Part shown: one piece after another, positions 2,155 through 26,508 of the stretch | Layout of the letters: each line of letters begins with the position of its first letter | Position numbering within the stretch: position 1 is the stretch's first letter | DNA from: Pseudoips prasinana | Taxonomy: Eukaryota; Arthropoda; Insecta; Lepidoptera; Nolidae | Reading direction: 5' to 3' | NCBI GenBank assembly: GCA_951640165.1 | Contig: OX621252.1 | Span: forward strand, 25,007,934 to 25,071,933 | DNA length: 64,000 bases | The notes under the pieces: model-generated | Told to the model about the DNA's origin: nothing | The model's database searches: none | Seen by the model: only the letters and a program-made list of their open reading frames with translations | Position numbers and translations under genes: made by a program

Positions 2155-5100
2155 TCTTCAATATTTACAAGCAAATATGTTTGCCACCGCATTGGAAGAG
2201 AGCATCAAACAAATACGTATACTAGGTACAAATTCAAATAATATATTATAATTACTTGCGTTATTTTAATTTTACTTTGGTGGGTACCTGATTTGAATCA
2301 AAACAGGACATTATAATTTGCAGAGTTATAAACTTGGCACTATTTTTCTAAAATAATAGGTCTTTACCTATGAAATTGCCGTTTTGTATGAAAAAATTTA
2401 AACGAATTTTTTTCATGAATTTTTTTATTTGTATTAATCGAAGTAATCACCCATGCAATCAATGCATCTTTGCCATCGCAGTGGCAGTTTATTGATGCCC
2501 TTCTTAAAGAAATCAGCTGGACGGGAGGCAACAAATTCTTCAAAGGCATTTTGTACTGCCTCTCGGGTATTGAATTTTTTTCCCGCCAAGAAGTTATCCA
2601 AATTCTGGAAAAAGTAGTAGTCTGTAGGCGCAAGGTCTGGTGAGTAGGGCGGATGACGGAGAGCTTCCAACCCCAGTTCTTGCAACTTGGAGACCGTCTG
2701 CTGTGCAGTATGAGGTCGCGCGTTGTCGTGCAGAAGCAGCGGAGACGAGCGATTGACCAATGCTGGTTGGAGATGCGCCAGCTTCTCCATCATTGTGCTC
2801 AGTTCTTCACAGTACACATCTGCAGTAATGCTCACCCCGTTTGGTAAGAAGCTGTGATGAATCACACCGGCGCTAGACCACCAAACAGTGACCATCACTT
2901 TTCTAGGGGTAAGTTTTCGTTTAGGGCATTGTTTAGGTGCTGAACCAGGATCCAACCAACTTGCTGAGCGCTTGCGGTTATCAAACAGAATCCATTTTTC
3001 ATCGCAGGTAACAATGCGGTTCAAAATTCCTTCATTTGTGTGTCTGTTGAGCAGTGCAAGGCACGTCTCGACGCGTACTTCGCGCTGGCGATCATTGAGT
3101 TCGTGGGGCACCCATTTGTCAAGCTTTTTTACCTTGCCAATTTGACGCAAATGGACCAATATTGTTTTGACGCTAACGTCGAAAGCTGCTGCTAATTCAG
3201 CCGTAGATTGTGTATCATCAGCTTCCACAACCGCCTTTAATTCGTCATTGTCGACCAAAGTCTTCGGACGACCGCGAGGTTCATTTTTCAGGTCGAAATT
3301 TCCAGAACGGAAGCGAGCAAACCAATAACAGGTGGTGCGTTGGTTTGTAGTGTTAGCTCCGTAAACGTCGTTGATGTTGCGTGCCGCTTGTGCCGCGTTG
3401 CTGCCACGACGGTACTCATATTCCATAATTACTCGAATTTTTAACGTATCCATGATGACGAAAAAGATTGAAATGCGATGAAAATGTAACACTAATCAAT
3501 AAAGAAATGACTACTTTTGGAAAAAAGAATCCATGTTTTTAAAATAAAATTAATTTGAAATTAGAATTCTTAGCCAAACAAAAATTATTTTGATTTGAAA
3601 TGGCCAGTACTGCAGAACGGCAATTTCATAGGTAAAGACCTAATATTAACATAAGTTAACATTTTTCAACTGTAGGTAACTAATTATTGGAGATATATAA
3701 TGATACAATTACAGTTTGCCTAGGAGGCTATAGCAGCGTATGAGAGCAAAATCCACTTAGTAACCCGCGTCATAAATGTTAAGGTTTTAACCCTTTAGGG
3801 TCGGGTTTTGATGAAGACCTATGCAACTTTACGTTAATACGCCTAGAGGAAAATACTGCGAAAACCATTTTTGCGATACGAAAATAAAGCTTAACGGAAT
3901 GGCGTTTTCATCGTTTGTCGAAAACAACGTCGCATGAAAAAATATCTGTGGTTGAATGTGCAAATAAAGCCCCTTAAATTGACACCTTACGCTATGTGAT
4001 GTATACATACTATAGGTAATTTGTATTTAACCTCCTTCGGCCTAGATATTTGGCTCCAAATAATTTCCTCTCTATTGAGCTCGAAGAACCTTTCAAAAGA
4101 CATAGGTTATTATAAGAATCGTCATTATCAACATGCCAGTTGATAGACGTTCATTGCTGGACATAGATCCATCCTCCAAGGATCTCCACATTTGCCGGTC
4201 CTGCACTGCCTGCATCCAGTAGCTTCCAGGATTTTTACAAGAGCTTCAAGCCATCCGAGGGGGCCCGCCCGCGCTGCGTCTTCCAGTTCGTGATGCCAGC
4301 TGAGAACTTTTATTATAAGAATAACTTAATTCTATTATTCTACCTATCATCATCAGCCTGAAATCGTCCTCTGTGGAACATAGGCCTCCATCAAAGGTTT
4401 CTATAACGTTGCCATTTAGAGGGGCCTTGCATCAAGTAAGATGGTAGCTAGTACACAGGAGGCGCTGCTGCCCCACACCTGGTGTATTCCTTAGTCACCT
4501 TTTACGACACCCATAGGATAATATGGAATGGCCCTGTTATTCTTTCTGGGTCGGAAACCACCTGACTCGACTTCTACCTATAGACCTACTAAATTTTGAT
4601 AATACATATTTTCTACAGACCAATGCAACAGCGAGCTCCACATAATAAAATTGAAGTCGGAGATTGAAGCACGGCGTCGCAAGAAATTTGGCGTCCAAGA
4701 ACATCCTGTAACCGATGAACTGGAAAACATTGACCACAAGAAACTCAACTGTCCAGAATATAAACTTAATAAATTATCAGCTGATAGGTTTGTTACAAGA
4801 TGAATCGGCTGCTAAATGTCCTTCTAGTCCTAGAAGGTGTAAAGTACATCAAGTGGGTACTAGCAGTTCCACTAACGTCCCAGCACCATATGACCAGTAT
4901 CCCAGCATAGACCATTGTGTTGCACAATTTCTTACCGAACACGGCAATTTTAAAAGTAAATTGTTTAGTTTCAAATTAGTATCTTCACCAATCTGTTTGT
5001 GCTCAACTTCCAGTAACGAATATGAACAAACTGCTCACCACATCCTTTGGGAGTGTGATCTCTGGCAAAATCAGCGTGATATTATGTTAAACAGCTTGCA

Positions 5101-8100
5101 ACCAATATCTGGAGTAGTTTATTATACGGATCTTGTGGCAACAAGGAACAACTTCCGTGTGTTTAAGCGCTTTTGCCATACCTACTATAGGAATCAAATA
5201 TAACAGCTCATTGAGGACCCTTACATTGATCCTCGGTGCTTTTGCAGCTGGCTTCTCTAGTTGCAAATCTCTCATTTCATGAGGCTATAGCCTCTTTACA
5301 TCTTTCTGTCGCCTGCTTTGCTCTGGAGGGAAGTGGAACTATTCATTTTCTAACTCCTCTTTTTTTCTCTTTCTGATTAAATTCGTTGCGGGATCCAAGA
5401 AAGTTAAATCGATTCCCCGGGACATGCCTGAGCCTCACCGCTCAGTGTCATTTCATTGTATGCCACTGTTCATCCTGGCTTACAGGAGTCGCAGTGGTGG
5501 ATAAGATGGAGGGACTAGTCCCGTAAAAAAAATAACGTCCCAGCAGTATGGTATTCAATACCACGATGGCCTAAGAGAATTCCTTGCATTGTCAATGAAA
5601 GCATTCAAGATCCAAATCCACACGTTTATTTTTTTGACAAGGCAGGTAGAAATTCCTATGCTACCCGCAAAAAGTGTCTGCAGGTGGGTATGGCGGATTT
5701 GCAGCGACTGAATCTCACCTGCCGTGGACTTCTCTTGGTGCTTGTGGGGGTAGTCCCGGAAATGCGGGTATGCTGCTCCGGTGCCCCCCTTTTGCGCCAT
5801 CCTCCAGGTGGTTTGTACACGTACCCTGGCAGAGATTTTGTTTGTCCTCCCTGATTGCCTACTCCTGCCAGTCAAGCATGACAACTGTGCCACAAACAGA
5901 ACGCTGTCTTCCCAGAGCTGCTTGCAAGTAGCGGCTATGGAGGCCACAGCCCCGAGAGGAAGTGGGACAATGGCTGTATACGTAGCAAGCTTAACGAGAT
6001 TTAGGTCGAGGGTGTTCCATATCTCAAGGGACAAGACAGATTTTTCCAAAAACCTTTACAAATACTGCTACAGTCGGTATTTGGAAAGTCATCGGAGACT
6101 AGCTGCTTTAGCTTAGAGTGACATCTTATAGCGCGGAAACTATATTTTACCACTGTCATAATCAGGGAAAAGCTCTTACGATCAAAGAGAGATCCGGCAT
6201 AGGAACAATTACTTTTAATTCAACTTTACTACTGTTTATCATGCTAGCTAAAAATGTGGTTTGAAGTCACTATCTTCAAACCCCATTTTTACATCGGAAG
6301 TCCTTTACCACTCTAACTTCTTATTTTCAGGCAGTACTGCTCAACGGTGATATCTGATACATTCTTGGACCTAGCATTGAACAGCTGCTACTTGCCTCTA
6401 GTTACTGCCAACAATGCACTAGAAGACCTCAAGACGTACCGCGTCAATCTTGCTGAAGAAGAAGGGAAAAACAAAACGTCAGTATAAATTCTGATGTAAA
6501 ACTCTTAAAATCGGACACGTCTTATTTGAATTCTTAAATCAGTTTATTTTTACTGGTTTTCGGAATATGTCGATGGAATACACATACTTCAAAACCAACT
6601 AAAATATATAAAATAATTAGAATAATTAGGGTATATGTTGAAATTATTTTATAACATTTGAAGTTGTTTAGCACCAACCAACCAAAAAAAAATATATGTT
6701 GGTGCTACAGCACCAACATATATTTTTTTTCGCACCATTTTAATTTAACTTTTTAGGGAATCTCGATCGCATCTATCTAATATTTTAACAGCACCCAATA
6801 TCTTTCCATTGGTGATTTTCATATAAATTCGAACTTTTGATTACTTATTTAGACTTCGTCGAGAGCTGTGGAAGCAGTTACGTCAGCAGCGGAACCATTT
6901 CAAGTCAGTCACCTACGACACTGACGTCATAATAGACACGCTCAGAAGTCAAGTGGAAGTGAGCAATATCCAACTATACTCAATCAAAAAATATATTTTA
7001 GGGATCCTTAGATCATACATGATTCGAAACCCAATATTTCTTAAGCCTTCTGGGCTCCTTGCTTATGAAGCGACATGTAAACAGGGCCATAAACAGCTCA
7101 CCGAATGACCAACGCCTGCTACACAGAACGACACGGAAGAAAACTGTGGATATGCGCTGGTCAAGAATATCGCCAGTTCATACAGTTCGAGCTTTTCGCC
7201 AAGCTTTTAAGTAAACATGGACACACACACACACTCATATGTTTTCATGTGTAGGTATGTGTTCAATAGAAACATATTGCTTCTTCATTCTTTATATTTT
7301 CCTAAACTTTAGGCGACTTTTTCCAAATCAATTTACAAAAACAAGGGTAGATTTTGATGTGCGATCTTTGGAGAACGGCATACTTCTACAAAGATGGGAT
7401 CATTCGATAACCGGGTACCTGTCATCTACACTTAGGTATTAGTACCTAAGTGTAGATACATGTTCAGGAAGACGTTCCATTCTACTTGGTGCTGCGTTCT
7501 GCTCATATTCCATCAGGTAAATTCACTTTCATGGTGAAGAGAGTAATATTTCCTCTTTGTTACGAATTTAGGAGTAAAAAGGATGAGTTTCATATCATGA
7601 TATGAAAAATGCATGTTACAAAACTCCACTCTTTTTGGGGCAGCTAAATCACTATTAGAGTTTATTTTTATCCAATCGGTACCTAAATCAAGTGTAGATA
7701 TGAAGTGGCGTAGCCCATGTGCAATATAGGTACTACTTGATAAAACTGAGGATTAAAATTACAGATGTTGTAAGCATAGGTCATTATGTCAGTAGCACAG
7801 TTTAATCTGGAGGCATCTTTTGTGCTATTTATAGCGAAAATTCGTACAGCTAGTTAAAACTAATAGATGTTTGTTTAATCGGATTTGATGGTCAGTTTTA
7901 ACTTACTAAAACTTTCACCAATGTGGCAGGCGCCTCTAGGTTCTTGGATACTTCTAGCTTTTTTATGCCCTATATGGTGTTAGCCCATGCATAACATCTT
8001 TCTGGCATTGTTAGTGTTCTTCTTTTCATCTGTCCAGGATGCAGCGCTAATGACAGAGATACGCGGCAGATACGTGGAAAACTGGCAAAACGCCCGCTCT

Positions 8101-11100
8101 GAACAACACCTGCAAACCATCGCCGTGAAAGAGGGCGGGTCTTCTGACAGCATTGAGTACTACGGCCAGAGAACAGACCACGAGCGGCGGGTACACTCGG
8201 AGATAGAGTTGCTCACCACTATACTTATCAACGTAATTCTTCAATTAACAATGTATAATAATAATGTCCTCCCGACCGAAATTCGGCCACGGCGGCCAGT
8301 CTCAACGGAGACTAGCCAATTGCGCAGGACATATTATAGTGCACAAGTGTGTGCGCAAACACAGGGGTACTTTCTATTCCATCACTCCCATGATCCGATG
8401 GGACGACTAGCGACACGACCGGAAAGAGCTCAGGTACAGGACCGACGGCTTTACGTGCTCTCCGAGGCACGGGGGTGTAATACCGCCAACTTCTAGACTT
8501 CGTACTGACACTGAGAAATTTCTTTTTACGGAAACATCCCAAAATCACTTTTAGGCCTGCCCCGGGATTTGAATCCAGGACCTCGTTATCTGCGGATGAA
8601 CACGCGACCGCTAGACGAACGAGGCATACTCAACTCAACTCAAAAGTCATTTATTCCGTTAAAATATTACATATGTGTGGAATCGACAATTTTTTTTACC
8701 CTACCGTGCAGTGCATGACGTGGCAGCTACTGAGAAACACTGCCAGAAAACTCAGTAGGAATCCTTTTTTTAAATATTTATTTCTTACATAATATTACAT
8801 TGTATTTAAATGTGTTAATTTTGAGCGGCTCAATCCCACGCTGTTTTGTAGTAAGCCCTGCTACACAATTTGGCTTTTATAATTCTTTTAAACTTATTTG
8901 TAGACATTTCTCGGATATCACTGGGAAGTTTGTTGTAGAATCTTATACATTGCCCCATAAAAGAATTACTTACTTTGTGGAGACGGGTAGTACCTATGTA
9001 ACACAAAGTTATGCTTATATCTAGTATTTATATGATGAATATCGCTCCTTTTACAGAAGGAGTCTTTATTGAAATCAATGCCATCCTGTGGCAAACTGCG
9101 ACAGCTTCCAATTACGTTTAGGCTTCTGATCAATTATAGGATACAGTATAGCAACAGTGTCCAAGTTGATGACTTTATTCCTTTAAAGACAGCATGTTTA
9201 ATTATTATAGTTTACATTCTTTTACCAGGAAACCCTGTCTACAGTGGAAACATGGATGACCAAGTACGACACAGATATGGAGGCAGTCGACCTCAAGATT
9301 CAGATCAAGAAGAATGATTACCAGAACATGCTGGATAAAAGAAAATATTTAGAGACAACGGTACATTACATTTTCTTATGACTTTAGTTTCCAGGTAGGC
9401 TAAATTAGATTTTTGGGCACTAGCCAATTTATCTGAACGGAACATAGGTCATTAAGGTGCAGAAGTGTAAATGTAACACAGGTGCACTGTAATTTCAGTC
9501 TTATAATCCAACGCCTGCTGGGCCTTGGCGTTGGATTATAAATTGATATTTGCTAGAAAAAAAAACTTGTGTGTACTTATGTACACGCGTTAGAAGTTAT
9601 ACTTCTTAATATACAACTTGAACATAGTTATCAATTTTCATACCACCTAGAACTAACGTCATGCTGTTATTTTTACGATGCGCGCGTAGATGCTCGCGCA
9701 TCGTAAAAATTCACTCTCATACCACCTAGAACTAACTTCATGCTGTTAAATTTTTTGATGTCGGTGTGCGCGCGCATCGTAAAATTCACTCTCATAATTT
9801 TTCTCCATCGCGCCAAAAGAAGTATAACTTCAAAAAAAATCTTGCATCCTTATGTCCCATTCACTGGGTATAACTAGGGTTGCCAACTATATAGCTTTGA
9901 ATTATACTATTTACTCTTTTTCACTAAATTATAGTTTTACTGTTGAACAAAAATAAAGTATTCAAAATACTGTTTACATTTATTTAGCCAGAGATTGTAA
10001 ATAAGTAAGTTGTGCGCTTCTTGCTCTAACAAATATGTATCAAAAACAATAAATAAATAAAATACTGTTAATTTTTCTAAAATACTGTTGAATATTCTTC
10101 ATAGACCTGAATATACTTTATATCTAGTAAAAAAAAGTTGGCAACCCCAGGATAGAAATCTCCTTTGTTTTATTTTTCTGTAGTTTTGACTAAATTGCAT
10201 TAATATTAGTCATGGGATGTTATGTCTGGTTCGGCGGTGTTAGTCTGCTTCCAAAAGCGTCGGTTTATGTACTGCTAATGCTACTCTTCTTTGTTACAAT
10301 CATATAAGGCCGGCTGCACTCACTAATGCTACAAGTAGAACTTAATTTATCAGCATAATGATTTGCTTATAATTTAAAGCAATCTTCTTGCTTCAAGCCA
10401 CAGTTTATATTCAAGCTTAGTGAGAGCTCGGTTCCTATCGAAGTGGAGGGAGCGTAATCAGGGTAGTTGATTGATTCGTAAGCAATTATGACAGAAAAGC
10501 CAGTGGTTATTTCCACAACAAACTTAAAATTCGGTACAAGTGCCTCATAAACCGGGTATGCTTATGCATTCTCTTCTCAGGAGAGATTTTTAAACTATAA
10601 TAAAATACACTTTATTGTACACAAAAAAGGACGTTTTGCAATGACACATTGATTATAAATTATAATGTACCATGGGCGGTCTTATAGCATTAAGCGATTT
10701 CTTCCAGACAACCTTTGGATGGATAGGAATTTCATGTATAAAATGCCAGGAACGTTACGATGGTAGCCTAAAGGCAATATGCACACATTAGAGCATGTCT
10801 AATGTCTGTATTGTGTCCTATTTGCGACACAGTTAACCTAATGTATCACTAAAACCTACCACATCATTAATTAATTCAAGTTAACAAATAATTAATTTAG
10901 ACTACATATATACTACATATATTTTTATATAAAAATTCGCAAAAAGATAATAATAAGCAGTGCTAATTTTCAGGTTTTTTGCCTCGCTATCTTTGAAGGC
11001 CGATTATAGCCAAAGTAGCCCTTTAAAGTACTACTTCTTTTTAATCCTTCTGGAAACTGAGAGTCGTTCGCATTTTTGAAGCATACTTAAGAACCACGAA

Positions 11101-12273: not shown

Positions 12274-12301
12274 GAGCAATATAATACGACAAAACTAGTT
12301 A

Positions 12302-12307
12302 AATAAA
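12302..12307 (+). terminator. poly(A) signal of DRC9 copy 1
   Basis: AATAAA 29 nt after the stop codon of copy 1. Confidence 0.6.
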
Positions 12308-12549
12308 ATTAACAAAATAACTGTTCTTTATATGTAATAGTTGTACCGATTACCATCCTCTCATACTGTTTTAAAATTGGAGAACTAAGTTTAATGTTAT
12401 ATAAACCTATCAGAGGTATTACCTAAAAAGTGGGAATGTTCCCACCCTGTGAACTATTTAGCCATTCGAAATAAATTGACAACAAATTGGGTAGTGTGCA
12501 ATAGTTGTTACTTCATTCTGATTATAATTCTTTTGTTAATCCGTAGATG

Positions 12550-13865
12550 ATTCATCATCATCTAATCCTATTAGCCGAAAGTCTTCCACACCTGGACAAA
12601 GGTCTCCCCCAAAGTAGATACTACAATTGCCGGTCTTGCGCTATCCGTACCAGCCCTATTGGAAACGTTAGCGATTATGGAGCCACAATACAATAAGAAA
12701 CATCAACATTTAGTATCTTCACAGCAACTGTAACTTTGGTTCTCCAATTGCAAAATTTCCTAGGATGGTAGTCAATAATGGTCATAATGATATTTTAAAA
12801 ATATTAGGTATTATCTATGATTACCGAATAAAATACAGTTAAAGTTCGCTGAATAATGTACTAGAACCGATAAATGTTTCCCTTTAACTGGTAGGAGGTA
12901 AACTTCTAATTGATTTATTTTGATTCTTATTCAAATTAAGAGAGTTGAAAATATGGTGGCAACTATATTGCCAGTCACAACGAAAGCTTAAGATGTTTTT
13001 TAAAAGAATACCAGTGAACTTGAGAACCTCCTCCTTTTGAAGTCGGATAATAATATTACCTACGCGGAGAAAAGTTTATAGTTTAGGGGTATGTGGGAGT
13101 GTTTAAGTACCATCTAATTCATGTGGTCTAAAGCCTAAGGAATATCAAATTTTTATTACGTTATATATTTTGGTATTTTACTTGTAATTTTTTTACTTTA
13201 GGTACTACTCCGTTGAAATGCATTTATTAAATAAATTATTTTTTACATTATATACTTGCATGTCCTGTAATAAACATGCAATAAAATAAGTTCGTAGAAT
13301 TTGTAATTTTATTTCTAGGGTTTAAAAATATTTTATAGAATTATTTTAATGTAGCCTTACTAATGAGTATAGTATGCTAAATTGCTATTGTTAATAAAAT
13401 TTCTATTTATTATAAAGGTAGTAAAATTTGTATTTCATGACTGTTAGTATTTTATTTTCCTGTGGTTTTATGCTGCAAGTAATCTGTGCTGTCCAAGCTC
13501 CAGTAATATAACCTGCATTAATCTATCCTACATCGATAACAATGCACGATAGTTTAAAATATATCGTCATCATATCAGCCGAAAGATGTCCACTGCTGCA
13601 CAAAGGCCTCCCCCAAGGATCTTCACAATAGTCGGTCCTGCGCTGCCCGCATTCAAGGGCTTCCCGCGACTCTTGCAAGATCGTCGGTCCACAATGCGTC
13701 TTCCGGTTCGTGGTCGCCACTCGAGAACCTTTCTACCCCATCGGAAGTCGGCTGTACGAGCTATGTGCCCTGCCCACGGCCACTTCAGTTTGGCAATTCT
13801 TTGGGCTATGTCGGCTACTTTGTTTCGCCTGCGGATTTCGACGTTTTTGATTCGATCGCGCAGGG
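12550..13865 (-). repeat. two RTE-like LINE 3' fragments in the intergenic gap
   Basis: 12550-12660 and 13570-13865 are reverse complements of the 3' end of the LINE at 16448-17412 (AGCCGAAAGATGTCCACTGC and TTGCCGGTCTTGCGCTATCC types). The 0.9 kb between them (12660-13560) is AT-rich and I see nothing in it. Together they occupy the gap between the two DRC9 genes. Confidence 0.65.
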
Positions 13866-13878
13866 ATCAATATATATT

Positions 13879-14047
13879 ACACTAATATTATACATGCCAA
13901 AGTTTGTGAGTGTGTATGTTTGTTACTTCTTCACGTCTAAACGGCTGGAGTGATTTTAACAAAATTAGGTATGGAGCTATCTGACACCCTAAATTAACAT
14001 ATAGGCTATAATTTATAAAGTTTAACGTGGGTAAAACTGCGAACTAG
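13879..14047 (+). mobile_element. short nonautonomous Helitron-like element
   Basis: It ends in CGTGGGTAAAACTGCGAACTAG with a terminal CTAG. A second copy is reversed at 49398-49556. There is no ORF. The 5' end (ACACTAATATTATAC) is approximate. Confidence 0.55.
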
Positions 14048-14400
14048 CTGGCCACGTTTAAATTCACTATACCAGTGCGAAACGTTGCTTGTGGAAGTGG
14101 TCCTAAGTGGTTAAAGTGTTAAAGATTACTCCGTTTTTAGGCAACATTTATAATCGTAGAAAATCATGGCGCGAAAATGTTCTCGTTCCATTCCATTTTT
14201 CATACAGATATGATTTCACAAATTGGCTCGTATAAAATATGGAGCCATATTTGATTTATTTTTATGATATATTTATATCTGGCCAGTGTTTCCTGCAAAA
14301 ATTAGGAGATTTTAAAAACAGTCTGAGAGGCCTGGAAGCCCTTTATTTCTTTGATGTTATTTAGCGAATACGAGAATCTTTTTGGTCTGTCTTTCTCTCG

Positions 14401-14568
14401 TCTACTACATCAAAATAAGTCGGGTTTTCCTTCCTGACGCTATATCTCCAGAACGCACGAATCGATTTCCACGGTTTTGCATTCGTTGGAAAGGTCTCGG
14501 GCTCCGTGAGGTTTATAGCAAGAAAATTTGTAAAATTTAACGCGGGTAACACCGCGGGGCACAGCTAG
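14401..14568 (+). mobile_element. short nonautonomous Helitron
   Basis: The 3' end has the stem CGCGG...CCGCG, then GGGCACAGCTAG followed by host T, matching the Helitron rule (hairpin about 10 nt before CTRR, insertion before T). A nearly identical body (AAGTCGGGTTTTCCTTCCTG) occurs at 46830-47001. Confidence 0.7.
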
Positions 14569-14926
14569 TTTGGTATAAATAATACTGATCGCATCTACTG
14601 TGATGAACACACTGATGTCCGTACATAGTATTGCATAGAAACTCGAGTTCAAGAGGCTTGTTCTGCTAGCTTTATTATAGGGTTAAGGTTAAGCGACGTC
14701 GGGGATGCTATTGCTATTGAAAGCCTATTGATCGCATTCTTGTGAAGACTTACATTGACCTTAGATTAACATAGAAACCTCTAAATACTTATTTTGTCTA
14801 TGATGATTTATTTGACAAAGCGGTGTCGATTTTTTTACTTTTTGACAATAATGCTTCTTTTATCAGTTTTCGAATAAGATTCAACGTATTACTTTTAAGT
14901 TTTTTAGTGATTTCAATTGATTCATT

Positions 14927-14970
14927 TATAAAATAGGTACCTACTTGCCTATTATTTACAAGCATCAGTT
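14927..14970 (+). promoter_or_regulatory. possible core promoter of DRC9 copy 2
   Basis: TATAAAA at 14927-14933 and an arthropod initiator-like TCAGTT at 14965-14970, which is 21 nt before the ATG at 14991. The TATA-to-initiator spacing (about 40 nt) is wider than usual, so one of the two may be chance. Confidence 0.25.
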
Positions 14971-14990
14971 TATACCTTACAAATATAATT

Positions 14991-17900
14991 ATGAACGTGG
15001 CAGCAGTTCAAACACCTCCAGCAGAGCTTGGAGTGTTTTTCAGAGATCCACGAGGATTGGATTCTATGTCTTCCATAAAGGTATAATTTGTGGGTGGTAG
15101 GTATGCTCGAAGTAAATCAATTATTATAGTCAGAATTACACAACCCTCTGAAATCTGACCGGGTCATTGTGATCCAGTTAGATTGCGATTTATACGCGAT
15201 CTCCTGCACATTCAGTTAACTACTTGGTTTAGTGTCTTATTAACAAAGCAAAAAGACTGCCAAAGAGAACATAGTACTCTGATGAGACATTTCAATTAGG
15301 TAGAATTATGTCCGCGTACTGTTTGTCGAAATCCGTAGGGGAACCAAAGTAACCGACTTAGCCCAGAGAATTGCCAAACTGAAGTGGTAGTGGGTGGGGC
15401 ACATAGCTCGTAGGACCGGCGCCCGCTGGGCTATCCCAGCGAGAACCTTTCTATAAAGGTTCTCGCCTGGCGATAACGAACCGGAAGTCGATTCCTGAAA
15501 ACCACTGGGTGCAGCCAGCACAAAACCGGCCATTGTGAATATCCTTGAGGGAAACCTTTGTCCAGCACCGTTATCTAGTGCCTGTTCACACCGGCGCTTT
15601 GTCCGGCGATTTTTCAGCGATTTCACGACGAGGCAAGATCGCGGCGTGCACGCAGCATGCTCACCGCGATTTATCCATAGTCACGTTGTCACCGTCCCAT
15701 ATAGCTGGTAGCTTACGGATATCTTCTATAAACAATTCATTATTAAATTCCGACACCATTTTAACGTATTACTAGTTATTCATATGATTTCGAAATGAAT
15801 GAATAAACACACGCAGCAGACCGCAGAACTGTAGCGAAAAGTGGGTAGTGTGCTGCTAAAAACTAATCGCGGCAAAAATGTGCCGTGCTCGCCGCGTGCA
15901 CGCTGCGATCTGGCCTCGCCGTGAAATCGCTGAAAAATCGTCGGACAAATCGCGTGTGAACAGGCCCTTAGCCGATATGATTTTTTTACTGTTGTGTGCA
16001 AGTATCTTTTATTTTAAGAAACCCATAACCAGCCACAGCTTCTCAAAGCCAGTTGCAGTCAGTCGTCAGTAAACAATCGGCTAGTCAGAATCGGTTTAAT
16101 TTCTGAGCTCCTCCGTGCCCCGGAGAGTAGATACATATAATTTCCGACTTTATTGATGAAATAACAGTCTGTAACGGTTAAAAACTAACTCCATAGTCAA
16201 TGATGTTTCCATTGGCTAACTTATACATATTACAGGTATCGACTCTCGGTTTGCATCCTGCTACTCCTCAAAATTCTGAAATTACTACGAAATATGGCAC
16301 GAAAAGGTAATATATACTTTATTCTTAAGCCCTGTCTTTTGAATTCGCTAAAACCTGATATGCTAGAAAACACCATTGGCAAACTAGGAAACGATATCAA
16401 GGAATGTATCTCCTTGGACAAATAGATGCGTTATACCATTTTTTTTACGCCACTATGTCAGTGCGACTCCAGGACCAGATCTCGAAACCTATCCACTTGC
16501 AGCGAGGCGTGAGACAGGGAGATGTTATATCTCCGAAACTGTTCACCGCTGCATTGGAAGACGTCTTCAAGCTTCTGGACTGGAAAGGCTTTGGCATCAA
16601 TGTCAATGGCGAGTACATCACTCACCTTCGATTTGCCGATGATATCGTAGTCATGGCTGAGACCATGGAAGACCTCGGTACAATGCTCGATGACCTCAGC
16701 AGAGTCTCTCAACAAGTGGGTCTGAAAATGAACATGGATAAGACGAAAAACATGTCAAACGTCCATGTTGCACCCACTCAATTGAAAGTTGGTGACTCTG
16801 CACTCGAAGTTGTAGAGAACTATATTTACCTAGGACAGACCATCCAACTAGGTAGGTCCAACTTCGAGAAGGAGGTCAATCGTAGAATCCAACTCGGATG
16901 GGCAGCGTTCGGGAAGCTACGTAACATCTTCTCGTCCAAAATACCGCAGTGTCTCAAGTCGAACGTCTTCGACCAGTGTGTGTTGCCAGTGATGACATAC
17001 GGAACAGAGACGTGGTCGCTCACTATGGACCTTATTAGAAGGCTCAAGGTCACCCAAAGAGCAATGGAGAGGGCTATGCTCGGAGTTTCCCTGCGGGATC
17101 GCATCAGAAATGTCGAAATCCGCAGGCGAACCAAAGTCACCGACATAGCCCGAAGAATTGCCAAGCTGAAGTGGCAGTGGGCAGGGCACATAGCTCGTAG
17201 AGCCGACCGCCGCTGGGGCAGAAAGGTTCTCGAGTGGCGACCACGAACCGGAAGACGCAGCGTGGGCAGGCCCCCTACAAGATGGACCGATGATCTTGTG
17301 CGGGTCGCTGGAATCTGCTGGATGCGAATAGCACAAGACCGGCAATTGTGGAGATCTTTGGGGGAGGCCTTTGTCCAGCAGTGGACGTCTTTCGGCTGAT
17401 ATGATGATGATGATACCATTTTTTTTATGTAGTCACCACCCCAGAGCAATTGACAAAATCAAAGAGATTTTGAACACAGTTTCCCATAGAATAGAGTTAA
17501 CATCGTAACTGGCTAATAACACTGCATACATAAAACAATACCATATAAATATCGGCGACCAAAAAGGAAATTGTGGAGATCGTTGAGAGAGGCCTTTGTC
17601 CAGCACTGCGTCTTTGATGATGATGATGAAAAGGTAGTTCAGAAATTAAATTGGTTGCAGTTTAAAATATCTACAAGCTGGATGCTTCGCGTCCATTCTT
17701 GAAGATACTCTCGCGCAATTGGAAATCTTGGGTAAGATTTGTTCACAACATTATCAATATCACATTCAACAATATAAGTCGGAAGTAAGTACTTCTAAAG
17801 TACTGAATCTGCTCGTTCTACATACGCTATCCAAAGACTCCACAAATGTTCACTATCGATAAATCTGATTTAGTCAAGTATCCAAGACTCAGTATAAAAA

Positions 17901-20900
17901 AAAAAATCTTATTCTATGTTGGTAAAATTAAAACTGACAAAGTAAAGGAATACATAAAATCGCTAACGCCCCATTCCGTGAGAATTCTGGCGCAGCAGTC
18001 ATTTATGTAGACGCAGTCAAATCTGCCTGCGATCATGCTCAAAATGCTGTTGAAGTGACCTGAAATCCTGCACATCAAGGATGCGCACAGTTTGTGCATT
18101 GTGGCATCGGCAAACATGCCCGATGCGCTATAGAAACGTGGCAAACCCAATTGATTGATTCATTATTATTTATTTATTGAAAATATCCGCAATCTGCAAT
18201 TATTTCTTCAAAATCTTTTTTTAGTAATTAGATAACATTAACCAAATACGTTTAGATTTCAAGAATGCTTTGAGATTATAAACTGTATTCAAAACGTTTG
18301 TATAAAATGATTACACTACTTTAATTTACAGATCAATGCAACAACGAACTGAGAATTGCTAAGATTCAGTCTGAAATGGGCCATCTAAAGTCTCTCAAAT
18401 ACGATGTAATTGAGCGTGATGATCACCCAGATACACTTGCGGGAGTTAATGGTCAAAAGCTGGATTCAACTATAAATAAAATCAAGAAATTGGACGCCGA
18501 CAGGTCTTGATCCTTTTTACACAATTATACACGAAAATTTCTTTAAACTACCCAAATTGTGGTGTGATATTATTATCATTAAGTGATACTTTATATTATT
18601 TCGTAGTCGGTCAGATCTTAAACAGCGTTCGACCCATGAAATCATAGAAAACCCCAAGTCTATGCCTGTGAGCTCGGAGTGAACTGTACGTGGGTACGTG
18701 TCCCGACCATCTGGAATATGGCGCAAAAGGGGAGCACCGGAGCAGCATAGCTGCGTTCCCGGGGATCCCCCTATCAGGCGTCAAGTGTCAGTGTTGGTGC
18801 GAGTCCGACATACCCAACCGCAGACACTTTTTGTGGGTGGCATGCGCAGGCATTCCTCCTGCCTTATCAAATAAAAAATGGTTTTATGGATTAGACATAC
18901 GTGTTTTGGTTCTAGCTTATCTTAGAATTAACTAGTGATTCTTTTTTGACATATTTACTTACTCAGGTTTTGTCTTTAGGAAATACGTGAAAAAAGTCTT
19001 AAGAGAGACCTGTTTCGACTTAGCTCTGAACAACAACTTCGATAACCTGACAAAGCATTTGAATGAGCGCGATGACCAAGAGCAAGGTCTTGCTGATCTG
19101 GTAGAGGAGGAAGCCAGGAACAGAGTGTATGATTATTTCTTATTTATTTTTGTTAATGACTGTGTGGCATCTACATTGACTATTGATCTTTTGTTGCAAA
19201 ACTTCTTGACTTTAAGTTCACAGATCTAGTTCTAGAAACGTGAATTTTTTTAGCACTCTGTGTTTGTATCTATTTTGGATGCATTATGTGGTATCATAAG
19301 TAGATATTTAGCAGTTGATTTGTCCCGGATATTTATTTATATTATTTATTATACAGGTATGGGTATTACAGTTGATAAATATTGTAGCTGGAAACCACAG
19401 GTCGAGAAAATAGTCAACAAAATATATCGTTATATATATGTTATAAAAAGAATTCGACAAACAGTTAACCGAGAAAGTGCCGTGATGACTTACCACGCTT
19501 ATGTATCGTCCATACAGCGATATGGAATTATTATATGGGGCAACTCAGACGATGTTGACCAGGTGTTATAAGCTCAAAAAAAATGCATCCGAGCAATAAC
19601 AGGAGTACTTAATTTTCTTAATTGTAAGCCACAAGACCGTAAAATACTAACATTACCCATTTTAGAAATATGCCTCTTTGTGTAAAAGCACTCAGAATGA
19701 TTTGAAACTATGGGTGATATGGAACGTAGTCGTACAAGACACGGAGATTTTTAAAAGAATTGTCTACTAGATGTTCTCAATAATATACAATCATCTGCCT
19801 AAATGTTTAAAAGAATTGCCATTACCAAAATTTAAAAAACATATGACTGACGTGTTACGTACCTATTAAAAATTATTACAAATTAAAAGATTACCTAGAA
19901 GATAAGTTGACATAGTATTAATAAGAATTTAATTTAATTCCAATTAATTAATATTTTTTATTATTTAGTACCTATGTATTAAAATTTGCACGTCATACAT
20001 TGATGACAGAATATGTACCTAGAGCATAATTATGTAACACGAATATTACCATGTTCTAGCAAATAAATAGTTCTGATTCTGATTCTGGGATACGATATAG
20101 CTATGGGAGCCTGGTTTTTGATACATAAAGAAAAGTACTCTTCCCGAAAAAGAAGAGGTATTGAACTCCAAAGAAGCCATAGGTCCTGCTTAATAGAGTT
20201 AAGCAGGACCTATGGTTCTTTGGAGTTTGTAACAGTTACTGTACCAACACGAGGTATGGACTCTGCGGAAATGCATTGCATGTGGTTGGTAGTTAACTTA
20301 TTGAAACTATAGTTCAGTTTCATCCGGGAACAAAGCACAACTATACTAAACATATTACGTTCTATTCTCACACGACGAGTCGACGATCGACGGTCGACGA
20401 CTAGTAGACATTCTACTTCTGGTTTCAGGTCTCGTAAAGAATTGATAAAACAACTCCGGCAGCAGCGAAACCACATTAAAACTGTGAAATATGACGCAGA
20501 GGTTACCATAGATAAGCTCAAGAATGAAGTTGAAGTAAGTCTATGAGTCTATACTACTGGATGGACAATGTTATATGGATATGGATAATGAATGGACAAT
20601 GGTGCAACCTCATTTTAAATTTAATTGTGTAGTGTTAAGAGCTCAAATCGGTCCTAGTGTTAATAATAATCACTACCTACCAATTTAATTTTAAAAACAG
20701 AATATCATTTGAAAATAAACTTTAGATTAAAACGTTATTATAATTGCACATTATTTATAGAGCAGAGTTTATAAGCTTCAGCATGATAGAAAAGCAGTAT
20801 CTGTAAATACACAATATTATTACTATCACTTTTTTATATTACCAAGAATACGGCCTACCTAATGGTAAGAGACTCCTGTCTTCATCCCAATGAGTTATAG

Positions 20901-23900
20901 TGTCCTTACACCCGGGACGATAACGTTAGCATATTAATGTTTTTACTTGTATGTAAAGTATTGTGTAAGTTTAAGTAGTTTAAGTGCAGGTGTTAATTGC
21001 GGCTTGACGACTTGCTCACAGAGCGAATGAACGCATACACTAGGTATATCACTTCAATGTTGCTACTGTTTAAAGCTGACTAAAAGCCGGGGCACCGGAG
21101 CAGCATACCCGCGTTCCCGGCGCTCCTCCCATCAGGCGTCAAGAGAAGTCCGCAGACACTTTTTGCGGGTGGCATCTGTAGGCATTACACCTGCCATAAA
21201 AAAAAAAAACCGGCCAAGTGCGAGTCGGACTCACCCATGAAGGGTTCCGTAGCAGCAGGTATTTCAGTTGATTAAATGACACGTAAATTGCGGTTTACGA
21301 TTTATGACGTATTAAAAAAAAACTACTTACTAGATCTCGTTCAAACCAATTTTCGTTGTTAGTTTGCATGGTACATCTTATTTTAGAAGTTACAGGGGGG
21401 GGGGGGGGATACTCATTTTACCACTTTGGAAGTGTCTGTCACGCAAACTATTCAGTTTAGAAAAAAATATATTAGAAACCTCAATATCATTTTTGAATAC
21501 CTATCCATAGATACCCCACATGTATGGGTAGGATGAAAAATTTTTTTTGAGTTTCAGTCCTATGTATGGGGTACCCCCAAAATTATTGTTCTTTTTCTAT
21601 TTTTGTGTGATAATCTTATTGCGGTTTACAGAATACATCTACTTACCAAGTTTCAACAGTACAGCTCTTATAGTTTCGGAAAAAAGTGGCTGTGACATAC
21701 GGAAGGACATACAGACAGACAGACTTGACGAATCTGTAAGGGTTCCGTTTTTTGCCATTTGGCTACGGAACCCTAAAAAGCCCTTCCAAATTACCTTCAT
21801 TTGGAGATTACAGAGTATCAAATCTTATTGTATGGTTAAATACACATATTATAGAGTTAAGAATTAAATACAAGATGGGGATAAAACCCACTCGTAAGTC
21901 GTATAAATCTATACATATATTATACGTATAGATTTATACGAGTCGGTTTTCGTAATCGTAGGAAGTCAAAACTGTACATCTAATATTTTTTCTAAAGGAT
22001 AATAATTGGGGCGTGATCTACATTCGATATGGAAGCCAAAAATATAGTAATTAGAATTTTTGTCTGTTTGTCTGTAGGTATGTATGTCCGGGCTCTAAAC
22101 TCAAAAAGTACTGCATGGATTTACTTAGAATTTTGCTTGAATATTACAAAGAGGTCGAGTCAACATATAGGCTACATATTATCACGCTATCACCTACAGG
22201 GGAGGAGCTGTGATAATTTATAAAATTTAACGCGGGTAAAACCGCGGGGCACAACTAGTAAATAATAAACGTCGTCCTGGTCGAATTTTGCCCACGGCGG
22301 AGAGCCACAATTTAATCCATCATCCAGTTCACAAGGGTATGTGCAAATACAGGGGCACTTTCTGTTCCATCATTCTCATGATCTGATGGGTGACGTTACG
22401 TGCTCTCTGAGGCACGAAGTAATACCACCAACTTCCGGACTTCTGGTTGATACTGAGAAATCCAAATTCACTTACTGTTTGAACCCAGGACCGGCAGTCG
22501 TTGTATGATCTATCCGACTTTCTTCTTCTGAAATTCAAGGCGTATGTAGTAAACTTATTTATTTCAGGATGGTAGCTTGCTCGGGGAAATTCGCAAGCGT
22601 TACATTGAGAACTGGCAAAATGCAAGATCTGAACAGCACATCCAGTCAATCTTTGAGATTGAAAATGTGCCAACTACTACTATTGAGTACTTTAAAAGCA
22701 GGATTGTGTATGAAGACAGAGTCCACATTGAGATTGAGCTGTTGGTTAACTTGATGATCAATGTGAGTAATCCATGCTTTTATAACGTACGGCATAGTCA
22801 TTGAGTTATCAATGGACATAGCAGTGTAAGTTGGCAAAAGTCATATGACGCTATTCCATACGAATTAATAAAAGAATCTTTTTAAGGAGAATCGAGCCTG
22901 TTTCTTCGATGCTTAATAAAATACAACTAACTACTGCCTGGCGTCGGGAGGGTCTCCACCGCTGTTGTTCTAGTGGTTGCCATCCCATCATGCCGTACGA
23001 AGTTCATTTAATAATTCATTCATTAATTTATTCAAATTCAAATTATTTATTTCGGAAAATATCCATATAATGTTAGTATAACTTAGCCTAATGTTAGTAT
23101 CAATTACATTAATTATATTAAGGGTGTCTGGACTCTTACCCACCTGTATAAAAGGGGAGAGTCCCACCGATCAGGATGCTATTGGAGGAGAAGCGCAAGC
23201 GCTCCATCATGGAAGCGCAGCGCCTCCGCATGCTCGCGGCGAACCCGTCGACGCACGACTCTGCGAACATCCCCGACGCACTAGACCGCCACGGCAACCC
23301 CAAGAGCACCCTCAATGTGTTATATGAACAGTGGTTACCCTAATGTTGCAGCTTTTCATCACGCCTACAAGGCCCCTGACATGGCTTATCAAGTGCTGTC
23401 TAGTGACTACTGCAGGGATCGACAGCTTAACGTGCCCCTAAAAGCAGGGATGCGCTGCCATGGATTAACCTCTTCGATTGTCACGAAGAGGGTAACTAGC
23501 TATGGATGCATCAAGAGTGACGATTACTTGATATATCAAGCGTAATTAAATATTCTTCTGTTAAACTAATTCAAGTATGATATTTCCCAGGAAACGTTGA
23601 CAAAGGTAGAGGAGTGGATGGATAAGTATGACACTGATATGGAAGGTGTAGATCTGAAAATACAAATAAAGAAAAATCAATACCAAGATATGAAGGAGAG
23701 GAGAGAAGAATATGAGAGAACGGTTAATTACTTATTTTTCTTTTTCGATGACTGTCAGCTAATATTAAACATTATTACTGAAATAAACTAGTCTCGCCTA
23801 GTGGTAAATAGAACTGAACAATCAAGCAGTCTTAAATAAATTACGCACGGTCATATTATACACTCCTACATCCAAAAAACAGACACCTCTGAGGATTGTG

Positions 23901-26508
23901 TGTTTTTTTATTTAAAAAATCAATCATGCTTGTTAAATGGAATGGTAGGTATCCCTTATTTCCTCCCCGGTCTATGACTGCTTCCATGTGGAACGTATAA
24001 GAGTCACAATCTTCTGCTATCCCACTCGTCTTTTATAGCTGGCCAAGCGTCTCCAGAGGAGAATCTCTCGGTCGGACTCGTCTCATAGGTGTCCTATGAG
24101 ATGCATATCCAGGCTTCTTACTAGCCATAACCATAATACAGACTTTGCTTTGGTATTCATTAACAATACCTGCGGTGTGAGCTTTCTTCCTTCATTGTCC
24201 TGCATAAAAATGAACTCTTTGCCAATAAAATGGTCACAGGGCGCACATGAGGCTCCAGAAACTCTTCGATGGAACGTAACATGACCTTTTTAATTACCGT
24301 AAGCGAGGTCCAGACAAAAAATCAAGTTTGGTTTTTCTATCAGCACTTTTGCCTCCTCGAATCTTCCATGCACCGCGACCGTGACTGACTCATACTTTAA
24401 TGCAGTACTGTGTAATTCGCTCTCCCTCTTCAATAGACGCTATCTCTCCCATCGTTACCATACATCATGATCGTACTGTTGTTGGGTGCAGGAGTTCATG
24501 TGAGCCAACCAGGATCCAGGAGCCAAATTCAAATAATGTCACCTAGCTTTTGTTGCCTTCTAAAGGGTCTTTCAACAAGGACGGGCCGATGTTGAAATTG
24601 AATAAAACAAGCTGCGTGTGAGATATTAACGTATTTTATATAATATTTTATTTTTCATACGAAAGGCCTATTAATGCCATTGTTTATGAAATATGACATC
24701 GTTTAAATGTCCGCCGCGGCTTCGAACAGTGGCGCGGATCCGAGAGGTCCAATTTTCTATGACTCTGCTGCATAAATCCGGCAAAATCTGAGCGATGGCC
24801 TGCGTTATGTTGAATTTCGGGCATCAGTCGATTGCGGTTTATTGGCATAGACTTGTGACTTTAGGAAACCCCACAAGAAACAGTCTAACGGGGTTAATTC
24901 GCACGATCTTGGTGGCCCATTCACGTCACCTCTGCGAGAGATAACCTTTCCCTCGAACCGTTCATGCAGAATTTCCATCGTGTCGTTCGCTGTGTGGCAC
25001 GTAGCGCCGTCTTGCTGGAACCACACGTCGCCTACATCCATATCGTTCAATGTAGGCCTAAAAAAATGTTTATCATTGACCTGTTGCGCTCTCCGTAGAC
25101 AGTGATGGCTTCGCCATGGTCGTTTTCAAAGAAATACGGACCGATGATGCCACCGGACCAAAATCCGCACCAAACAGTAACTTTTTGTGGATGCATAGCA
25201 ACCTGGTGAACCTCATGTAGGTTGGTCGTCCCATATTCGGCAATCTTGCTTGTTGACATAGCCATTCATCGCAAAATGCGCCTCGTCGCCAAAGATGATT
25301 TTTTGGCCAAAATCAAGGTTCTCTTCCAAACATTCTGAAGCCCAGTTAGCGAACAAACGGCGTTGTCTATGGTCATTCACTTTTGAGCTCCGGGGTCAGT
25401 TGGATCTTGTACGGGTGTAGGCTCAGGTCCTGACGCAGATTACGCCAAGTTGAAGTCTGCGAAAGGCCGAGTTTTTATGCACGGCGAGAAATCGACTGCC
25501 TCGGAGTCTCCTTCACACTCTCACGGACAGCGGCGATGTTTTCGGCCGATCTGGCATTTCTTTGACGTGAGGGTGTTGGTTGGTTGTTAACTGAACCGGT
25601 CGTCCCAAATTTGGCCACCAAACGTTGGAGAGTCGACTTCGAAGGGCCACCGCGTCTGCCGGTAAATATTTATCACAGATAATAAAGTTTTATCACAGTG
25701 CTGCTCAATCGTGTAACTTGCCATGGGGAGCAAATAAAGTGATTTGATTTTATGTAACGATATTAAGCAAATAAAGTGATTTGATTTGGCATCAATGACT
25801 GAACAAAATACAATAGATTTGACAGATATCACAAAAACTATATGACCGACACAAGCTGTTAATATCTGCCCGCCCTTGTTGAAAGACCTTTTAGTACGCA
25901 GGTTGGTCGGGTTCTGCTAGGAATGGTCAAGGATTCTATTGTTCCCTGTTAGCGCACGGCACGGGCAGCAGTATTTATCCATAGCGTAAAAATTTCATTA
26001 ATAATGATATATTTTACTACCTACTTAATGCGATATAGTAAAATACTACTATAGATATTAAAAATAAGTATTTATACTTATAAATAACCATATAACAACA
26101 ACATAAATAACTCAGCTGTGTTACTAAATTATTACCATCATAAACTTTGTGTGAAGTCTAAGTGCCTTTATTTATAAAACATGGATCTGAATATCTACTT
26201 AAATCTAGAATTAATGATAAATTGCAATTTCTATGTCGATAAATCATTAACGTAATAATATCATGTTCTGCTTATATAAATAATTTACTTTTTGTTTTAT
26301 TTTCGCTCAGCTGGTGGACCACGAACAAGCCATGAAGGAATGGATCGAGTTCAAAGACAAGCGCGAAAAGGAACGGAAATATCAAGAGAAGATGTTTAAC
26401 TCAGCTATAATAGTTCAAGCATGGTGGCGCGGACTCCTTGTCAGAAGAGAACTGGGTCCCTTCAGACCTAAGAAAAAGAAGAAGGAAAAGAAGAAGCCGC
26501 TTTGGTAG
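14991..26508 (+). CDS. DRC9/IQCG: dynein regulatory complex subunit 9 (IQ domain-containing protein G), tandem copy 2, complete
   Basis: Nine exons: 14991-15080, 16236-16306, 17661-17731, 18332-18503, 18980-19126, 20429-20534, 22568-22762, 23591-23722, 26311-26508. They total 1182 nt (393 residues plus stop), every junction is in phase and every intron is GT-AG. Vertebrate IQCG is a little longer (about 440 aa). Landmarks in order: MNVAAVQTPPAELGVFF start, FASILEDTLAQLEIL, RETCFDLALNNNF, the coiled-coil segment RKELIKQLRQQRNHIKTVK, YIENWQNARSEQH, WMDKYDTDMEGVDLKIQ, and the IQ motif IVQAWWRGLLVRRELGPF with a lysine-rich tail. At the 18980-19126 exon the donor is AGAGT|GTATGA; the tempting GA|GTGTAT donor two bases earlier breaks the frame. 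The role is as in copy 1: axonemal, so sperm in Lepidoptera. The two genes are in the same orientation, about 2.7 kb apart. Confidence 0.9.
15306..15560 (+). repeat. RTE-like LINE fragment with a local inversion
   Basis: Plus-strand remnant of the LINE C-terminus (ACCAAAGTAACCGACTTAGC, TGAAGTGGTAGTGGGTGGGG). At 15435-15462 GCGAGAACCTTT is followed by its own reverse complement, which the intact copy at 16448 does not have. Confidence 0.65.
15577..15970. mobile_element. palindromic MITE, GCCTGTTCACAC family
   Basis: Inverted termini of about 100 bp: TGCCTGTTCACACCGGCG on the left, and on the right AATCGCGTGTGAACAGGCCC. The arms share GATTTTTCAGCGATTTCACG and GTGCACGC segments. It lies in intron 1 of DRC9 copy 2 and has no ORF of its own. 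Confidence 0.75.
16448..17399 (+). CDS. LINE reverse transcriptase, C-terminal two thirds, uninterrupted
   Basis: The polymerase copies its own RNA into DNA at the target. The frame is open from the insertion point (upstream codons of the frame belong to host intron) to TGA at 17397-17399, about 316 residues. Visible motifs: LQRGVRQGDVISPKLF (RT motif B region), FADDIVVM with the catalytic Asp pair, YLGQTIQLG, and the C-terminal KWQWAGHIARRADRRWGRKV and GRPPTRWTDDLVRVAG blocks. The endonuclease and RT fingers are missing because of 5' truncation, so it cannot be active. The clade call (RTE-like) rests on the C-terminal blocks. Confidence 0.85.
16448..17412 (+). mobile_element. young 5'-truncated RTE-like LINE in DRC9 copy 2 intron
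   Basis: ATACCATTTTTTTTA is present at 16433-16447 and 17413-17427 as a 15-bp target duplication. The insert ends in a (TGA/ATG)n tail after the stop. It is the best preserved of at least ten related fragments in the window. Confidence 0.85.
17535..17640 (+). repeat. RTE-like LINE 3' tail
   Basis: AATTGTGGAGATCGTTGAGA, GAGGCCTTTGTCCAGCAC, and a (GAT)n tail, immediately before the 17661 exon acceptor of DRC9 copy 2. Confidence 0.7.
18600..18880 (+). repeat. short poly(A)-tailed hairpin element
   Basis: Same family as 5620-5830: GGCGCAAAAGGGGAGCACCG, GCAGACACTTTTTGTGGGTG, then an A-rich end. It is in the intron between the fourth and fifth exons of DRC9 copy 2. Confidence 0.6.
19340..20090 (+). 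mobile_element. CR1-like LINE C-terminal fragment
   Basis: The frame reads GITVDKYCSWKPQVEKIVNK, VIKRIRQTVNRESAVMTYHA, YVSSIQRYGIIIWGNS, then a stop at 19569 and further broken coding (KKCIRAITG). It ends in a TTCTGATTCTGATTCTG tail at about 20072-20088. Confidence 0.75.
20164..20227. repeat. 29-bp hairpin with 5-nt loop and one bulge
   Basis: AACTCCAAAGAAGCCATAGG-TCCTGCTTAA pairs with the following arm through a TAGAG loop, with a single unpaired G. It is intronic in DRC9 copy 2, upstream of the 20429 exon. Confidence 0.9.
21085..21212 (+). repeat. short poly(A)-tailed hairpin element
   Basis: GGGGCACCGGAGCAGCATAC, CCGCAGACACTTTTTGCGGG, A12 tail. It directly abuts the GGCCAAGTGCGAGTC repeat. 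Confidence 0.7.
21213..21780. repeat. GGCCAAGTGCGAGTCGG / GGCTACGGAACCCT repeat, about 560 bp
   Basis: It begins CGGCCAAGTGCGAGTCGGA and ends TTTGGCTACGGAACCCT, with an internal poly(G) run (about 21396-21408) and CAGACAGACAGAC. Other copies: 53590-54385, 56060-56620, reversed at 51948-52550, and an end fragment at 33362-33410. It has no real ORF. Confidence 0.8.
21950..22258 (+). mobile_element. short nonautonomous Helitron
   Basis: It ends ACGCGGGTAAAACCGCGGGG then CACAACTAG|T. The body is shared with 42055-42352 (GGGGCGTGATCTACATTCGA, ACAGGGGAGGAGCTG). It is preceded by a perfect hairpin at about 21900-21942. Confidence 0.7.
22262..22540 (-). repeat. SINE copy related to 8265-8630
   Basis: AAATACAGGGGCACTTTCTG, TGATCTGATGGGTGACG and GAACCCAGGACC follow the same order as the 8.3 kb copy. 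It ends about 30 bp before the 22568 exon acceptor. Confidence 0.6.
23160..23345 (+). pseudogene. GC-rich exon-like coding fragment in a DRC9 copy 2 intron
   Basis: From the ATG at about 23178 the frame reads LLEEKRKRSIMEAQRLRMLA, then ANPSTHDSANIPDALDRHGN, and NVLYEQW before a stop. GC content and codon choice differ sharply from the AT-rich surroundings, as expected of a real exon. The frame does not match the phase-0 junction of the flanking DRC9 exons, so it is not an extra DRC9 exon in that frame. A TATAAAAG lies about 35 nt upstream. It is likely a fragment captured from another gene; I do not recognise the parent. Confidence 0.4.
23352..23530. repeat. dispersed repeat related to 43735-43960 and 49190-49390
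   Basis: GATCGACAGCTTAACGTGCC and the following segment match GACCGACAGCTTAACGTGCC at 49244 and a weaker copy at about 43826. Confidence 0.5.
24563..25891 (-). mobile_element. degenerate DD41D (rosa/Visitor-type) Tc1/mariner transposon
   Basis: The ends AAAGGTCTTTCAACAAG(G)GCGGGC form inverted repeats flanked by TA. Minus-strand transposase pieces: HQVAMHPQKVTVWCGFWSGG (25265-25047), then VWFQQDGATCHTANDTME and CELTPLDCFLWGFLKS (25050-24805). The Asp of QQDGA and the Asp of TPLD are separated by 41 residues. The frame is broken between pieces, and the right part carries the 22-nt direct repeat GCAAATAAAGTGATTTGATT twice (25726, 25768). It lies in the last intron of DRC9 copy 2. Confidence 0.85.

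Follow-up and report, generated by a model that had tools for sequence, protein, structure and literature searches.

A tandem pair of DRC9/IQCG genes, probably of old origin, in Pseudoips prasinana and other Lepidoptera

The window analysed here, a stretch of 64,000 nucleotides from the moth Pseudoips prasinana, carries two DRC9/IQCG genes in head-to-tail arrangement on the plus strand, A (2155-12273) and B (17661-26508). Both are coding, and their relatives form two clades whose members are repeatedly found together in other lepidopteran genomes. Our comparisons indicate that the duplication probably predates the split of several major moth and butterfly groups and is probably not species-specific. 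Taken as a whole, the data are best explained by an old lepidopteran DRC9 tandem pair that was probably retained through differing use of the two proteins among axonemes.

Gene structure, coding state and identity of the two copies

Each gene presented seven homologous exons in the same order. Those of A were located at 2155-2225 (71 nt), 4619-4787 (169 nt), 6331-6477 (147 nt), 6853-6958 (106 nt), 8038-8232 (195 nt), 9229-9360 (132 nt) and 12073-12273 (201 nt, stop codon included), and those of B at 17661-17731 (71 nt), 18332-18503 (172 nt), 18980-19126 (147 nt), 20429-20534 (106 nt), 22568-22762 (195 nt), 23591-23722 (132 nt) and 26311-26508 (198 nt, stop codon included). Five of the seven lengths were identical and the other two differed by 3 nt, in line with the original prediction of lengths that are equal or 3 nt apart. 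All exons were delimited by tblastn matches to lepidopteran DRC9, splice sites and open frames, and every intron-side boundary displayed AG before the exon and GT after it. In B exon 3, one candidate donor broke the frame, whereas the GT two bases downstream of it kept the frame open and gave the exon the same length as its counterpart in A, 147 nt. The spliced models of A and B comprised 339 residues each, with zero internal stops and a terminal stop codon, which supports the view that this is a tandem duplication in which both copies are coding. The whole proteins were 52.5% identical (BLASTP, E = 3e-123). By exon, identity was lowest in exon 3 (33%) and highest in exon 6 (68%), while the 65-residue exon 5 showed 36/65 matches, in agreement with the predicted value of about 55%. 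Given this BLASTP E value and the probability of a 339-codon stop-free run arising by chance (~6e-11 at 37.5% GC), a chance origin of A and B was excluded.

The IQ (calmodulin-binding) motif that had been proposed for both genes was recovered above the cut-off as PF00612 (E 1.6e-05 in A and 6.7e-05 in B), with no other Pfam family reaching it. The motif reads VQAWWRGLLVR in both copies and is encoded on the plus strand at 12157-12213 in A and 26401-26454 in B. A tblastn search of the window with 100 homologues detected no third DRC9 copy. Neither the same search nor a scan for the N-terminal motif of copy 1 (the clade of B, see below) located a 5′ coding exon with a start codon for A or B. Both models are consequently N-terminally incomplete, and position 2155 is an acceptor site and not the start of the gene. 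The best-scoring 5′ exon candidate, at position 912, faces an open frame on the minus strand, and we dismissed it as a probable chance match. Two overlapping minus-strand open frames without Pfam match were also observed upstream of A (660-1080); they may be exons of an adjacent gene encoded on that strand.

Sequence searches against solved structures assigned both proteins to DRC9, as the original prediction had named them. A matched the human-type DRC9 chain 8j07_9 at 5.3e-20 and its best DRC10 chain at 3.5e-4, and B matched the bovine DRC9 chain 9fqr_Qz at 4.1e-19 and its best DRC10 chain at 0.0092. Structure models were built for the Trichoplusia orthologues P0006 (copy 1) and P0016 (copy 2), standing in for the spliced window proteins. 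They were predicted to be long helical rods with the IQ motif at the end, with helices at 173-392 in the former and at 153-248 plus 252-372 in the latter, and the top PDB match of both was the DRC9 chain 8glv_En (E 2.0e-4 and 1.1e-4). Model quality was modest (pLDDT 73.7 and 76.3; pTM 0.34 and 0.40), and TM-scores were low (0.22-0.26), as for any long flexible rod. The N-termini of these models were predicted with low confidence, and the window models begin downstream of the 5′ coding exon. Judged by these matches, A and B both encode DRC9/IQCG, a long coiled-coil rod with a C-terminal IQ motif. They resemble known DRC9/IQCG in best sequence match, IQ motif and, through their orthologues, the helical rod with its IQ end and the top DRC9 fold match. 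They depart from it in being two tandem genes instead of one, in being only 52.5% identical to each other and in the window lacking a detected 5′ coding exon. Since DRC10, a distant relative of DRC9, shares the rod-plus-IQ layout and is matched weakly by both proteins, the pair could in principle consist of one DRC9 and one DRC10 gene. The far higher scores to DRC9, the matched exon lengths and the mutual identity make such a composition exceedingly improbable, and the score gap led us to rule out DRC10 as a member of the pair.

Distribution of the two copies and age of the duplication

In order to look for a second DRC9 gene in other Lepidoptera, we searched protein collections with B (86 proteins), A (87 proteins) and a profile (at least 123, from 7991 candidates scored because they shared most words). 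The named strong matches were lepidopteran DRC9-like proteins. A tally of the search listings showed at least 18 species with one protein per copy on contigs of equal length; in 14 of them both proteins were placed by the 77-row tree described below and in 4 the second copy was placed by BLAST. Leptidea, Anticarsia and Arctia also had two proteins on equal-length contigs, one of the two having no copy assignment. Mythimna loreyi, M. separata and Dendrolimus kikuchii carried both copies under consecutive locus tags. Many species thus have two DRC9 genes, and in these three the tags place them next to each other. Four proteins of ~700 residues, P0101, P0102, P0103 and P0104 (from Leptosia, Aphomia, Danaus plexippus and Pectinophora, respectively), contained two DRC9 units in a row. 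The N half belonged to copy 2 and the C half to copy 1 in Leptosia, Aphomia and D. plexippus, which is the order of A and B in the window; in Pectinophora the C half was copy 1 and the N half a long branch without copy assignment. Each of these proteins is probably the result of an annotation that joined two adjacent genes, and users of such annotations should be aware that several lepidopteran DRC9 entries of this length look like merged gene pairs.

A single copy was listed in two families. Six tortricids (Choristoneura, four Cydia and Leguminivora) showed only copy-1-like proteins and six papilionids (two Papilio, two Parnassius, Battus and Iphiclides) only copy 2 among the matches listed; three of the tortricids and four of the papilionids were placed by the 77-row tree and the remainder by BLAST. 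These absences may not be real losses, which a protein listing cannot prove, and they are possibly artefacts because Galleria (copy 2) and Plodia (copy 1) also had one copy among the matches listed while close relatives of each have both. The tortricid genes may represent copy 1, with copy 2 lost, or a lineage older than the duplication; both readings stand because the AU test does not reject a tree with tortricids outside copy 1 (p 0.388). For A, BLAST did not separate the two copies (scores of 381 against 377). In Hyposmocoma kahamanoa, three very diverged DRC9-like proteins on long branches (P0080, P0082 and P0110) came from two contigs of different length, which suggests either that the gene evolved unusually in this lineage or that its models are poor.

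The first trees, which included isoforms and fragments (99 and 71 rows), were unclear and had no clean two-copy split. Before the 71-row tree, 31 of 100 proteins had been removed by hand (isoforms, fragments, long branches and outgroups), and further hand removals preceded the 83-row tree. With 71 rows, noctuid copy 1, B and the gelechiids grouped with copy 2, although a tree held to a united copy 1 scored 3.27 log units better. When new matches were added and the fused models were split (83 rows), the two-copy split appeared (support 80/91), and both Aricia and the N half of the Pectinophora protein fell on the side of copy 1. Removing the long branches P0110, P0104N, P0076, P0069, P0046 and P0121 left 77 rows, which separated into 39 rows of copy 1, including B, and 38 rows of copy 2, including A (support 97/92; 99% of 200 bootstrap trees). 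Both halves repeated noctuids, bombycoids or lasiocampids, pyraloids and butterflies. In each half the window gene was sister to the rows of Noctuidae, with support of 96/83 for A (copy 2) and 100/96 for B (copy 1). Rooting with distant outgroups united copy 2 (97/79) and placed the tortricids and gelechiid copy 1 at its base (89/85 and 89/68), an order of deepest branches that is not trusted. In this tree all lepidopteran rows stood apart from the outgroups (99/98), and the duplication therefore occurred within Lepidoptera as sampled.

Codon comparisons agreed with an old duplication. Over 336 aligned codons, A and B differed at 37, 30 and 64% of first, second and third positions, respectively, and at 35 of 43 shared four-fold sites, a level of saturation. 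At the codon level, synonymous sites are saturated while the protein has been held. Together with the two mirrored clades, this supports the considerable age that had been claimed for the duplication. A recent, species-specific duplication with one copy under relaxed constraint was the outcome that the original prediction had set against its own reading; the rival weighed here is a recent duplication confined to the species or genus, followed by fast divergence. Forcing A and B to be sisters lowered the likelihood by 13.65 log units with 77 rows, although the AU test did not reject this arrangement (p 0.0992, and p 0.124 in an earlier test). The tree thus disfavours the recent origin while the AU test retains it. 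Considering also that each copy is sister to its own noctuid counterpart, that four-fold sites are saturated and that three fused models from other families repeat the order copy 2 then copy 1, we regard a recent origin as very unlikely. Among the other arrangements, placing A in copy 1 instead of B was disfavoured in two AU tests (p 0.047 and 0.0239), whereas the inclusion of both window genes in copy 1 (p 0.199) or of neither (p 0.269) and the placement of papilionids there (p 0.0555) were not rejected at 0.05, nor was that of tortricids outside it.

Possible roles of the two copies in axonemes

On the reading of an old pair, a tandem duplication within Lepidoptera would have produced two DRC9 genes that are still adjacent, copy 2 followed by copy 1. 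In Tetrahymena, DRC9 and DRC10 are reported to dimerize as a coiled coil within the linker of the nexin-dynein regulatory complex (N-DRC). They are the predicted binding partners of calmodulin there, and the DRC9 N-terminus may relay signals to dynein e (PMC10504270). By homology, each lepidopteran copy would pair with DRC10 in the N-DRC linker, bind calmodulin and influence inner-arm dyneins. Both copies may then have been kept because they are used differently among axonemes, such as those of eupyrene sperm, apyrene sperm and chordotonal cilia. Loss of Iqcg in the mouse is reported to disrupt sperm tail formation (PMC3931569). A Drosophila table lists DRC9 (CG13972) as 'Ch only', not testis, and DRC10 (CG13168) as Ch plus testis (PMC6367277). 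Because of this listing, treating DRC9 as a sperm gene in insects is an assumption, and a division between sperm and sensory cilia has to be weighed as an equal rival to a division between sperm types.

Several differences between the copies bear on these alternatives. In 9 of 10 species pairs, copy 2 had evolved at a higher rate than copy 1 (sign test p 0.021). This figure is indicative only, since some pairs combine two species, as in Bombyx (B. mori with B. mandarina) and Ostrinia (O. nubilalis with O. furnacalis), two of the pyraloid pairs have branches in common, and the end of Danaus plexippus copy 2 is mis-annotated. The window pair ran against the trend, the branch of B (copy 1) being longer (1.21 versus 0.88 for A). 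By eye, an N-terminal motif resembling R-I-x-S-x-V-x-x-x-W-G-x-x-x-I-Y was recognized in several copy-1 proteins, from Helicoverpa, Trichoplusia, Choristoneura, Cydia, Plodia, Amyelois, Bombyx and Dendrolimus. A W-G-R-A-S stretch was seen in the same manner in pierid and nymphalid copy 2, the copy-2 tails of moths having no clear counterpart. The complete IQ motif was present in 72 of the 77 tree rows.

The original prediction had proposed one paralogue per sperm type. This strict form was not supported: six tortricids and six papilionids had one copy among the matches listed, and apyrene sperm are reported in both families (both sperm types in the codling moth, a tortricid, and apyrene sperm in the papilionid Byasa alcinous; PMC10926456). 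If the single-copy absences in these families are real, a rule of one copy per morph fails. A biased or partial split, in which one copy would serve mainly eupyrene axonemes and the other apyrene ones, may nevertheless apply, though we give it limited confidence. Its precedent is Ccdc63, whose duplicates in moths are wompa, enriched in eupyrene sperm, and wimpa, enriched in apyrene sperm (PMC11288676), and the faster evolution of copy 2 would be consistent with it. Faster evolution names no morph, however, B has the longer branch in the window, and Danaus Ccdc63 is reported to depart from the moth pattern (PMC11288676); the one-copy families argue against a biased split as well. Alternatively, one copy could serve sperm flagella and the other the cilia of chordotonal neurons, a suggestion in which we place limited confidence. 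The Drosophila listing of CG13972 and CG13168 (PMC6367277) and the somatic/germline duplication of Ccdc63 reported in Diptera and Lepidoptera (PMC11288676) both favour it, and among the matches listed we noticed no sign of a third DRC9 clade in Lepidoptera. Against this, the two copies evolve rapidly and neither stands visibly closer to the outgroups in a tree with long branches, and one-copy families would need a single gene for all axonemes. As matters stand, the sperm-morph and sensory-cilium divisions are level.

A further alternative dispenses with any division between cell types: each sperm would use both proteins, as N-DRC subunits that are mixed or redundant in part. That either copy is apparently losable (only one being found among the matches listed in tortricids and in papilionids) and that both keep the IQ motif and the rod speak in its favour, but the long retention of both in Noctuidae, Pyraloidea, Pieridae, Nymphalidae and others, and different N-terminal tails, suggest some difference in use, so that we give it the same limited confidence as the two divisions above. 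Returning to retention through differing use, one could speculate that there are two versions of the N-DRC, carrying copy 1 or copy 2, whose distinct N-terminal tails would tune inner-arm dyneins. The N-DRCs of eupyrene flagella would then differ from those of apyrene flagella, or those of sperm from those of sensory cilia, with tortricids and papilionids relying on a single DRC9.

The closest parallel is the lepidopteran wimpa/wompa pair, in which an axonemal gene was likewise duplicated within Lepidoptera and both paralogues were reported to be kept across the order (PMC11288676). The DRC9 pair similarly forms two paralogue clades across lepidopteran families in the 77-row tree, though not in the 71-row tree, and copy 1 is not one side when outgroups are included. 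The two systems differ in that Ccdc63 is an outer-arm docking protein and not an N-DRC component, in that DRC9 families with one copy appear to exist, and in that morph-biased expression has been measured for Ccdc63 (PMC11288676), whereas for the DRC9 pair it is a hypothesis. Drosophila CG13972 is comparable as an insect DRC9 but is one gene in the table, listed for chordotonal neurons only, and the likeness follows that listing and not a sequence comparison (PMC6367277). In Tetrahymena, DRC4A and DRC4B are also paralogues of a coiled-coil N-DRC subunit; they are described as forming a heterodimer with each other, whereas the partner of DRC9 is DRC10 (PMC10504270). Our literature search, outside which subscription papers mostly lay, found nothing on lepidopteran DRC9 paralogues, on the dynein regulatory complex together with apyrene sperm or on IQCG in Bombyx. 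The pair therefore seems to be undescribed and to belong to the type already known from Ccdc63. How a single genome gives rise to sperm of two such dissimilar forms has long been asked, and only a few structural genes specific to one morph are known. Beside Ccdc63, a conserved pair of DRC9 genes would add a second axonemal candidate, located in a dynein-regulating complex, and the one-copy families, if confirmed, would constitute natural controls.

Mobile elements within and around the pair

The first intron of A harbours a mariner-like element on the minus strand (2357-3642) with a 353-residue open frame matching Transposase_1 and HTH_48. The element is flanked by perfect 27-base inverted ends, which include a TA at each side, and it appears to be young. 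A reverse-transcriptase fragment (RVT_1) was located on the plus strand at 16359-17399, ending ~260 bases upstream of the first B exon found, with diverged pieces nearby. Downstream of B, a broken retroelement on the minus strand (31050-32798) was represented by fragments of RNase H and reverse transcriptase.
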